NCBI GenBank assembly: GCA_015655015.1
Contig: JAATFV010000178.1
Location: 1 to 64,000 of the forward strand
Direction: 5' to 3'
Length of the DNA: 64,000 bases
Source: Chitinophagales bacterium
GTDB taxonomy: Bacteria; Bacteroidota; Bacteroidia; Chitinophagales; Chitinophagaceae
In this document: piece after piece, positions 40,984 through 47,817 of the stretch
Position numbering within the stretch: the first letter of the stretch is position 1
Layout of the letters: the number at the start of each line of letters is the position of its first letter
Made by a program: the position numbers and the translations under genes
Notes under the pieces: generated by a model
The model's database searches: none
Told to the model about the DNA's origin: nothing
What the model saw: the letters and a program-made list of their open reading frames with translations, nothing else

Positions 40984-42225
40984 TCAGGGGTGATTGATTA
41001 ATGTTGTCAGACAGGATGGATCTTTTCTATGAGAGCCGCCGCCATGGGCCCCGGTTTCCTCCTGCATAAACTCCCTTATCAGCGCCTCTATCTGCGCAAA
41101 CTCCAGGAGAAATCCGTCATGGCCATACAGGGAGTCGATAAGCCGGAATCCGGCTCCCGGAATGGATGATGCCAGTAATTGCTGTTCAGGTTTTGGAAAA
41201 AGAATGTCTGTTTCGATGCCGATCACAAGCGCTCTGGCCCGCACCTTTTCCAGCGCCTCCACAAGTCCGCCTCTTCCCCTTCCCACATCATGGGCGTCCA
41301 TGCTGAGGCTGAGCGTATAATAGCTAAAGGCATTGAAACGGCGGACCAGCTTTTCTCCCTGGTAACGCTGGTAAGAGGCTGCCCCATTGCGAACGCCTGT
41401 TTCCGTTTCCGCCGCTGTCTCCGCCTCCTTCTCCGCCGCTTTTCCCTTCTCCGCCGCTGTGCCCGCATCATCCGCTGTTCCCGCATCATCTGCTGTGCCT
41501 GCATCATCTGCTTGCTTGCCGGATCGTTCTTCCCCGGAAAGTCCCGGCCTTCTTTCCGACAGATAGTCGTCCTGCCGGGGCTGCAATATCTCATACGCTT
41601 CATAATGCCGGTAGCTCAACAGCGCGGCAGCCCTGGCCGCGGCCATGCCGGCCAGTCCTGCATCTGCGCGGCGTTCTCGCCAGGTGCCATCTGCCTCGAT
41701 GGCCATCCTTTGCGCGGTATTGAAGGCGATCCCCCAGGGCGAATGCCGTGCATTGGTGGCGATAGGGACGATACAATAGAACAATTCCGGCTCTTCGATC
41801 GCCCACTCCAGCAATTGCTGTCCCCCCATGCTGCCTCCGATACCGATATGGATCCTGCGGATACCCAGGAATTCCCGGAGAGGCTGGTAAGTCCGTATCA
41901 TATCGCGGGGCGTAAAAAAAGGAAAGTCATGGTAATAGGGTTCGTTCCTGCCCGGATCCACATCGAGGGGACCTATACTGCCATAACAGCTGCCCGGCAT
42001 ATTTACACAGACGATAAAATGAACGGAAGGGTCGAACAACCTGCCCTCTCCCACCAGCCCGGGCCACCATTCAGCGGGATCGCTGTTGGCCGTCAGGGCA
42101 TGGAAGATCCATATGACGTTATCCCCCGTCCTGTTCAGCTTTCCATACGTGGTATACTCCAGGTGGTAACCTGGCAGCACGGTTCCGGATTCCAGCGCGA
42201 ATGGTTGTAAATAATTAAATCTCAT
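40984..42225 (-). CDS. metX: Homoserine O-acetyltransferase with low-complexity insertion
   Basis: VIWIFHALTANSDPAEWWPGLVG; HIGIGGSMGGQQLLEWAIEEPE (nucleophile Ser); VIGIETDILFPKPEQ; SLYGHDGFLLE. Confidence 0.95.
   Translation of the reverse strand: MRFNYLQPFALESGTVLPGYHLEYTTYGKLNRTGDNVIWIFHALTANSDPAEWWPGLVGEGRLFDPSVHFIVCVNMPGSCYGSIGPLDVDPGRNEPYYHDFPFFTPRDMIRTYQPLREFLGIRRIHIGIGGSMGGQQLLEWAIEEPELFYCIVPIATNARHSPWGIAFNTAQRMAIEADGTWRERRADAGLAGMAAARAAALLSYRHYEAYEILQPRQDDYLSERRPGLSGEERSGKQADDAGTADDAGTADDAGTAAEKGKAAEKEAETAAETETGVRNGAASYQRYQGEKLVRRFNAFSYYTLSLSMDAHDVGRGRGGLVEALEKVRARALVIGIETDILFPKPEQQLLASSIPGAGFRLIDSLYGHDGFLLEFAQIEALIREFMQEETGAHGGGSHRKDPSCLTTLINHP
41395..41515 (-). repeat. In-frame 18-bp repeat within metX (ADDAGT hexapeptide x3 plus AAEK/AETE tract)
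   Basis: Protein GKQADDAGTADDAGTADDAGTAAEKGKAAEKEAETAAETETGVRNG; DNA repeat gcatcatctgctgtgcct-like on the + strand. Confidence 0.9.
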
Positions 42226-46455: not shown

Positions 46456-47472
46456 CTAACGTTTTTCAAATTCATCTTCCAGATATTTTTCGTAAATGCG
46501 GTCTGCTACTTCTAAACATCTTGGATCGTTAGTTAGTAAAAGATCCGCATATATGAGTAACGGAGGTGCCAATTTTCTTTGATCCCATTCTGAGGCTTTC
46601 CAAAATTTATTGTAAATTTTTAAAGGACCGTTATTCTTTGGAAACAAGGTCCAGTCTTTAACGACCTTACTTCCATTTTCGGTATACAAGGTTAAGTATT
46701 CAGGACTAAGATAATCGGTAAGCAAATCTGCACCTGGTTCTCCTCCCCAAACGGTTTCTTCACGATCTTCCAGTAATGTTCGGTATCTTTCAAATTTGCT
46801 TTTATCCCCAAACACATAGCTGCCAACGTAAAGAGAAGGTTTCAATAGTTCCTGATAACCCGTAATCCATCGATCCAGAAGGTCTTTTTTATTCTTTAAA
46901 ATCTTTTTTCTATTGTTAACCTGTAAAATATATCCTGCTTCGTTCAAGCCTTCCAGTATATAATTGACATTGCCATGCGCTACTCCACTTAGCCGGGCCA
47001 ACTCCCGATGAGTAGAATTTAAATTACGCTCGTCAAGTAAAAGGTTAAATACTGCTTTAAGCCCTGTTTTGGTAAATGCCCGATTGGTGACCGGCTTTTC
47101 TTCCTGAACAAACTTTTGACCCTCAATTAAGAAAATGTAGCCGGCTTGTTTAAGAAAGATATTGCCTGCGCCATCCAGGAATCCTACATTTCTTTTCTTC
47201 AATTCCATTTTTGCGTCCGGGAAGATTTTATCCGCAATCACCATAAAAGGCGGATGCGTATCGGCATAGTTTATCGCCTGGTGTAAATTACGAGTTCTTA
47301 TTTCCTTCTTTATTTCTACATATAACCGCAAACTTCTATCCCCGAAATCAAATAGTACTTCCCCATCAATTTCGCTTGGGAAAGCATATTGAGTAAACAC
47401 TCCTTTAATTCCGATTAATTGTTCAAGTTGTAACAAGGCTCTGAATGCGATATCATTTTCAATGTTGTCCAT
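46456..47472 (-). CDS. AbiEi-like (COG4861-type) antitoxin/transcriptional regulator with PD-(D/E)xK-like N-terminus
   Basis: N-terminal IDGEVLFDFGDRSLRLYVEIKKEIR (ExK motif) and central winged helix NSTHRELARLSGVAHGNVNYILEGLNEAGYIL. Confidence 0.65.
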   Translation of the reverse strand: MDNIENDIAFRALLQLEQLIGIKGVFTQYAFPSEIDGEVLFDFGDRSLRLYVEIKKEIRTRNLHQAINYADTHPPFMVIADKIFPDAKMELKKRNVGFLDGAGNIFLKQAGYIFLIEGQKFVQEEKPVTNRAFTKTGLKAVFNLLLDERNLNSTHRELARLSGVAHGNVNYILEGLNEAGYILQVNNRKKILKNKKDLLDRWITGYQELLKPSLYVGSYVFGDKSKFERYRTLLEDREETVWGGEPGADLLTDYLSPEYLTLYTENGSKVVKDWTLFPKNNGPLKIYNKFWKASEWDQRKLAPPLLIYADLLLTNDPRCLEVADRIYEKYLEDEFEKR

Positions 47473-47577
47473 TTATTTGGCATGTCCATGGTCCGTGGAC
47501 AGGTAAATTTAGTATACAATTGTTGATTTTGCTATAAAAATGTTCATTTATTTGGCATGTCCATGGTCCGTGGACAG
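47466..47577. repeat. Two 37-bp direct repeats (1 mismatch), each with a 19-bp palindrome TGTCCATGGTCCGTGGACA
   Basis: Copy 1 47466-47502 (overlaps the start codon at 47472), copy 2 47541-47577; palindromes 47483-47501 and 47558-47576. Confidence 0.95.
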
Positions 47578-47817
47578 ATTCTTTCAATGGACAAATGGTA
47601 ATTTATCATTCATTAATAGTTGTGTTTTTTAAAAATAGCTTGTAAATCAATTGATTATAAGACCTTATAAAGGTCCAAAATCGTCCCGGACCGGTCAACC
47701 ATCGCAGCATTCCGATTGTTGTTCTTATCTTAGCTATCCCAAAGCGCCACGAGCGCTTAGACCGAAAGTCCATTATTAACCACACCGGAAATACGAAGGA
47801 AAAGGAATAATTGAACT

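Follow-up and report, generated by a model that had tools for sequence, protein, structure and literature searches.

The gene at the centre of this report, one of those in the window (the whole stretch analysed, 64,000 nucleotides of contig JAATFV010000178.1 from a Chitinophagales bacterium), encodes an orphan antitoxin of the AbiEi_2 family. With good confidence, we regard it as what remains of an AbiE-type operon that was acquired horizontally and whose toxin gene has been lost: an antitoxin that very probably represses its own gene through two operators, O1 and O2, in front of the start codon (Table 1). This is an ordinary kind of gene, but one whose relatives share a DNA-recognition pattern that seems open to direct testing.

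Table 1. Coordinates of the gene, its predicted domains and its putative control elements (positions in the window)
Feature	Position	Strand	Remarks
Orphan AbiEi_2 antitoxin/autorepressor (putative) gene	46456..47472	-	338 aa, ATG start; intact frame, PF09952 match
C-terminal AbiEi_2 domain	46459..46896	-	residues 193-338; predicted nucleotidyltransferase-like fold
Winged helix-turn-helix	46897..47082	-	residues 131-192; predicted secondary structure
Predicted recognition helix	46939..46977	-	residues 166-178; first residue His166, codon 46975-46977
N-terminal domain	47125..47466	-	residues 3-116; predicted PD-(D/E)XK-like fold; D36, E53, K55 poorly conserved
O1 right outer half-site	47466..47471	-	TGGACA; overlaps ATG 47470-47472
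O1 core palindrome (predicted)	47483..47501	-	
Putative Bacteroidota -7 promoter box	47504..47511	-	TAAATTTA (consensus TAnnTTTG); position usual in relatives
O1 left outer half-site	47513..47518	-	degenerate, TGTATA; 11 nt off core
O2 right outer half-site	47541..47546	-	TGAACA, the letters usual in relatives
O2 core palindrome (predicted)	47558..47576	-	75 bp upstream of O1
O2 left outer half-site	47588..47593	-	TGTCCA

Family, domains and the missing toxin

An earlier note on this DNA had described the 338-aa protein and its neighbours, and had remarked that no toxin gene lies beside it; all of this is borne out, and the open reading frame is on the minus strand with an ATG start. On one side is a gene for a DUF4382 protein (PF14321 match), whose stop codon converges with that of the antitoxin gene across a gap of 71 bp containing a terminator-like hairpin, and on the other is a uvrA-like gene in divergent orientation. 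The HMM search that the note had proposed identifies the protein as a member of the AbiEi_2 (PF09952) antitoxin family, with residues 193-331 scoring 84.4 bits (86.6 bits in the genome search), far over the cut-off of 21. The note was thus right to call the protein an AbiEi-family antitoxin, but the branch is the AbiEi_2/COG4861 type rather than the classical COG5340 type, and the protein carries an extra N-terminal domain; the two branches have been reported to have zero sequence identity in common (PMC3985639). The Pfam match and the partner motif described below point indirectly to membership of COG4861. No other AbiEi Pfam model matched the protein at E<=1, and a PDB sequence search returned no match to AbiEi or Rv2827c.

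The protein retains nearly all of the family-invariant residues; its nearest relative is 47-48% identical, and no close orthologue was found. Scanning species genomes gave 546 confirmed stretches, and the 80 best of these, which were retrieved, fall nearly all in records named Bacteroidota. Occurrence is patchy: with the window genome counted, homologues were found in 20 of 150 relatives, in 40 out of 399 genomes from the order, and in 17 of 295 drawn from the class. Related pairs are also present in 30 plasmid records of PLSDB, where NCBI names the relatives "type IV toxin-antitoxin system AbiEi family antitoxin" and lists most of them with a nucleotidyltransferase toxin. A phage origin was considered and rejected, with 0 matches in 50,697 phage records and one relative in viral contigs.

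Structure prediction supports the central winged helix proposed earlier (pLDDT 92), whose fold resembles that of the MarR and CRP regulators; sequence models of the helix-turn-helix match it weakly, below their cut-offs. The C-terminal domain, modelled alone (pLDDT 94), matches mostly nucleotidyltransferase folds, including MenT1, and Rv2827c (1zel) is among its weak matches at an E of about 2. A nucleotidyltransferase-like prediction for AbiEi C-terminal domains is also reported in the study of Rv2827c (PMC7319586). For the N-terminal domain the top matches include EndoMS, a Pyrococcus repair endonuclease and FokI, all weak. Every one of these structure matches has an E of at least 0.001, and we treat them as leads.

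Among the 128 antitoxin loci of the comparison set, 98 have a full-length AbiEii-type toxin homologue downstream, typically overlapping the end of the antitoxin gene. When five of these homologues were scanned with PF08843 (AbiEii), two scored over the cut-off, two were weaker and one gave no match; the motif KLxAaxxR, defined as motif III of COG4849 (PMC3985639), is present in 68 of the 98. Downstream of the window gene there is neither a toxin nor a toxin remnant. Its sister copies, L257 and L072 (SH-aLRT 99 in a tree from which the columns of the recognition helix were left out), both keep the toxin, and so the window copy is an orphan antitoxin whose toxin loss is derived. Copies whose toxin is missing or broken recur within the family: 25 loci with at least 1 kb of downstream sequence have no full-length toxin frame, which corresponds to 21 parsimony changes of toxin state, and a recognisable core operator is retained in 23 of these 25 toxin-less or toxin-broken loci.

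The earlier note had also raised the possibility of action in trans, but no intact cognate toxin gene was found elsewhere in the draft genome, which is 97% complete with 5.9% contamination, so that an unassembled one is possible. The only toxin of the COG4861-COG4849 branch found there is frameshifted and belongs to a second, decayed copy of the pair on contig C175 (L055, 49291-50700), whose antitoxin is missing its N-terminal part and its operator. Directly upstream of this pair, on the opposite strand, is a 506-aa gene without a family assignment. Further AbiEii-type toxin genes scoring over the cut-off are found on C227, C196 and C248 (L298-L300), the one on C248 being frameshifted. A resident toxin acting in trans was rejected as an explanation, in that each of these three other regions has its own upstream antitoxin-like gene, as judged by eye from the translations. 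The idea that co-resident copies are insulated by differing operators was likewise set aside: two-copy Chitinophagales genomes do have differing operators, but random pairs differ in 84% of cases.

The gene is proposed to have been acquired horizontally by insertion into the spacer between the DUF4382 gene and uvrA. Of 19 other loci of the genus that were examined, 12 have these two genes side by side with a gap of 33-615 bp; in the remaining seven, uvrA was not found in the sequence examined, two of those sequences ending within about 130 bp. The insert has a GC content of 0.37, compared to 0.50 for the window, and lies below every one of 314 equal-sized stretches. We noticed no target-site duplication at the insert. 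At four loci (L281, L283, L288 and L293) there is no uvrA within 1.5 kb past the DUF4382 gene and other sequence is found in its place; the spacer may receive inserts repeatedly, or synteny may be broken, at these loci. Elsewhere in the window, a predicted 413-aa protein (40984-42225, minus strand) bears a repetitive low-complexity stretch (ADDAGTADDAGTADDAGTAAEKGKAAEKEAETAAETETG), and its translation alone suggests that it is possibly a homoserine O-acetyltransferase.

Probable operators and the predicted recognition helix

The 19-bp palindrome TGTCCATGGTCCGTGGACA occurs upstream of the gene in two exact copies, as first noticed, each within one of two 37-bp direct repeats (47466-47502 and 47541-47577) that differ by a single mismatch (47469 C / 47544 T). 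The proximal copy was said to overlap the start codon; this is true of the 37-bp repeat, by way of its outer half-site TGGACA, but not of the palindrome itself, which stops 10 nt before the ATG. A search of the window allowing up to three mismatches found no further copy of TGTCCATGGTCCGTGGACA (0.04 expected from shuffles). Nor is there another within two mismatches in the 8.1-Mb, 259-contig draft genome, where the next best sites have three.

We aligned 110 upstream regions on the core palindrome. The consensus, TGTTCA-N11-TGTTCAC...GTGAACA-N11-TGAACA (n=110), describes a conserved 53-bp operator of four half-sites (half-site-N11-half-site-N7-half-site-N11-half-site), which lies over a Bacteroidota-type promoter and whose last half-site overlaps the start codon. 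The 11-bp spacing is found to the left outer half-site at 101 of the 110 loci and to the right one at 89, and the start codon falls within the last half-site, as ATGRAC, at 53. In 81 operators 7 bp separate the two core half-sites; in the other 29, about a quarter, with L077, L094 and L101 among them, this central spacer measures 8 bp. A TAnnTTT-type box is present between the left outer half-site and the core in 65 of the 110 regions, compared to 17 in shuffles, and mostly begins 10 nt before the core; at this position the window has TAAATTTA, and the published consensus of the Bacteroidota -7 element is TAnnTTTG (PMC6847099). No recognisable promoter box accompanies O2. In the papers that we read on the COG4861-COG4849 branch, we found no earlier description of its operator architecture or recognition pattern.

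A second upstream core is found in 12 loci including the window, at a distance of 73-78 bp in nine and 83-86 bp in three, and the difference of about one helical turn between the two spacing classes is suggestive only. Since tandem operators occur at 11 other homologous loci, nine of them with a full-length toxin homologue, the arrangement is not peculiar to the window copy.

The letters of the half-sites vary jointly inside a locus and are mostly TGTTCA in the relatives. TGTCCA on both sides of the core is found in only two of 128 rows, the window and L109, a distant relative from Geofilum rhodophaeum, and the same two rows are the only ones with a histidine at residue 166, where the predicted recognition helix begins (94 rows have L, 24 have I and four have F). 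In a tree built without the recognition columns, TGTCCA and His166 each require two changes. His166 is, furthermore, the sole residue private to this pair, and only 13 of 6996 pairs less than 45% identical have any common private residue in columns 160-176. Other operator variants show a looser pattern: TGTTTA is accompanied by Phe166 in one clade, yet by Ile166 in L081, L110 and L111. In a clade with TGTTCG operators, the helix starts with L-D-T. Independent TGTCCA/His166 events number only two, too few for a paired phylogenetic specificity test to reach significance. At one further locus, L265, no toxin was detected, Leu166 is present and the two sides of the core operator differ, one reading CGTCCACG and the other TGAACG; this operator may be an intermediate or may be decaying.

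From the conserved architecture, together with the matching change of specificity in relatives, the palindromes are almost certainly the protein's own operator pair, as the earlier note had suspected. Autorepression through them is very likely because of the conserved operator and the joint change of His166 and TGTCCA.

Origin and role of the orphan antitoxin

The events that we propose begin with the horizontal acquisition of an AbiE-type operon (an AbiEi_2/COG4861 gene with a COG4849-like nucleotidyltransferase gene) into the DUF4382-uvrA spacer, and the toxin gene would have been lost after or with this acquisition. The winged helix of the protein would bind the half-sites of O1 and O2, and His166 would recognise the base that has changed in TGTCCA/TGGACA. 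O1 spans the putative -7 region as well as the start codon and the point where transcription is expected to begin, and binding there would therefore silence the promoter of the gene itself. O2 would serve as an auxiliary operator some seven helical turns further upstream and may cooperate with O1. With the toxin gone, the gene would still supply antitoxin in self-limited amounts, and it would persist either as recent debris or as a neutraliser of related toxins on incoming elements; some antitoxin activity may remain, and may benefit the host.

The second of these outcomes refines the favoured explanation. If the gene is maintained for anti-addiction, it would be under selection for neutralising related AbiE-type toxins that arrive on plasmids or other mobile elements. 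The intact protein with its conserved residues, the related pairs on plasmids, and the recurrence of toxin-less or broken copies that keep the core operator all fit this idea, and orphan antitoxins of Klebsiella pneumoniae include some with confirmed inhibitory activity (PMC7192599). However, an antitoxin that had recently lost its toxin and had not yet decayed would look identical, and some of the changes in toxin state could be detection failures rather than gene losses. We consider maintained anti-addiction a plausible minority reading, with a probability of roughly one third. A fuller version is more doubtful: that a maintained anti-addiction repressor was recoded from TGTTCA to TGTCCA together with the change of residue 166 to His, and that a simple residue-to-base pattern, built on the conserved 53-bp four-half-site operator, holds across Bacteroidota AbiEi_2 antitoxins.

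It is improbable that the protein has been repurposed as a solitary regulator of other genes, for instance the divergent uvrA, through its new TGTCCA specificity. The family-unusual specificity of a predicted DNA-binding protein, the upstream O2 and the divergent uvrA would suit such a role, but the genome search that had been suggested for finding a regulon located no further operator within two mismatches, and many relatives have uvrA and the DUF4382 gene close together with no antitoxin gene between them. Furthermore, the TGTCCA homologue L109 still bears its toxin and tandem operators are also found in toxin-bearing operons, arguing that neither feature signals a new role. Nor does the wider pattern TGTCCACN5GTGGACA support a regulon: it was found in one of 396 genomes of the phylum, with no homologue in the stretch examined, and of 90 viral stretches that contain the motif, not one codes for a homologue.

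It is very improbable that the protein is a single-gene defence nuclease, with a PD-(D/E)XK-like domain that cleaves invading nucleic acid and operators that control only its dose. The weakly predicted restriction-like fold around the ExK segment and the presence of D36, E53 and K55 in the window protein speak for it, but only 66 of the 128 loci have the full D36...E53xK55 set (the E position may also be T, L, V, K or A), so that catalytic defence is unlikely as a family function. PADLOC, apart from a weak helix-turn-helix similarity, matched the protein to no defence model, and most loci have the toxin homologue downstream.

If the fuller version of the anti-addiction reading is true, the operators of AbiEi_2 antitoxins and the cross-talk between them would be predictable from sequence. 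Orphan antitoxins are known already; here the sequence itself shows the cognate operator and the promoter, points to the likely specificity residue and reveals which sisters still have a toxin. Across Bacteroidota, the conserved operator would serve as a search key for an antitoxin branch that has been little studied, and it would allow specificity to be tested directly by changing one residue; the recurrent loss of toxin with retention of antitoxin and operator makes the persistence of orphan antitoxins testable within one family.

Comparison with known systems

Among the closest known systems is the COG4861-COG4849 branch of AbiE-type toxin-antitoxin pairs, described as an associated pair by Dy et al. 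2014 (PMC3985639), to which the Mycobacterium tuberculosis protein Rv0837c also belongs as a COG4861 protein (PMC7319586). The window protein shares its AbiEi_2 antitoxin domain, and relatives of the gene precede a DUF1814/COG4849-like nucleotidyltransferase gene, whereas the window copy has no toxin.

Among the classical COG5340 proteins, AbiEi of Streptococcus agalactiae represses its own operon through inverted repeats that cover the promoter (PMC3985639), and it likewise consists of a winged helix and a C-terminal antitoxin domain. Its operator has a 23-3-23 geometry, compared to 23-7-23 here (TGTTCA-N11-TGTTCA being 23 bp), a resemblance that falls short of proof of the same binding mode; the window protein differs in its extra N-terminal domain, the lack of a toxin and the letters of the repeats. 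Rv2827c of M. tuberculosis (COG5340; PDB 1zel; PMC7319586) has two sets of inverted repeats upstream, comparable to O1 and O2, and a C-terminal domain with weak similarity. It belongs to a different COG, however, its repeats form neighbouring pairs inside a 131-bp stretch, and a toxin gene follows. The orphan antitoxins of Klebsiella are mostly type II, short proteins from other families and hosts, but they resemble the window gene in being antitoxin genes that stand without a toxin.
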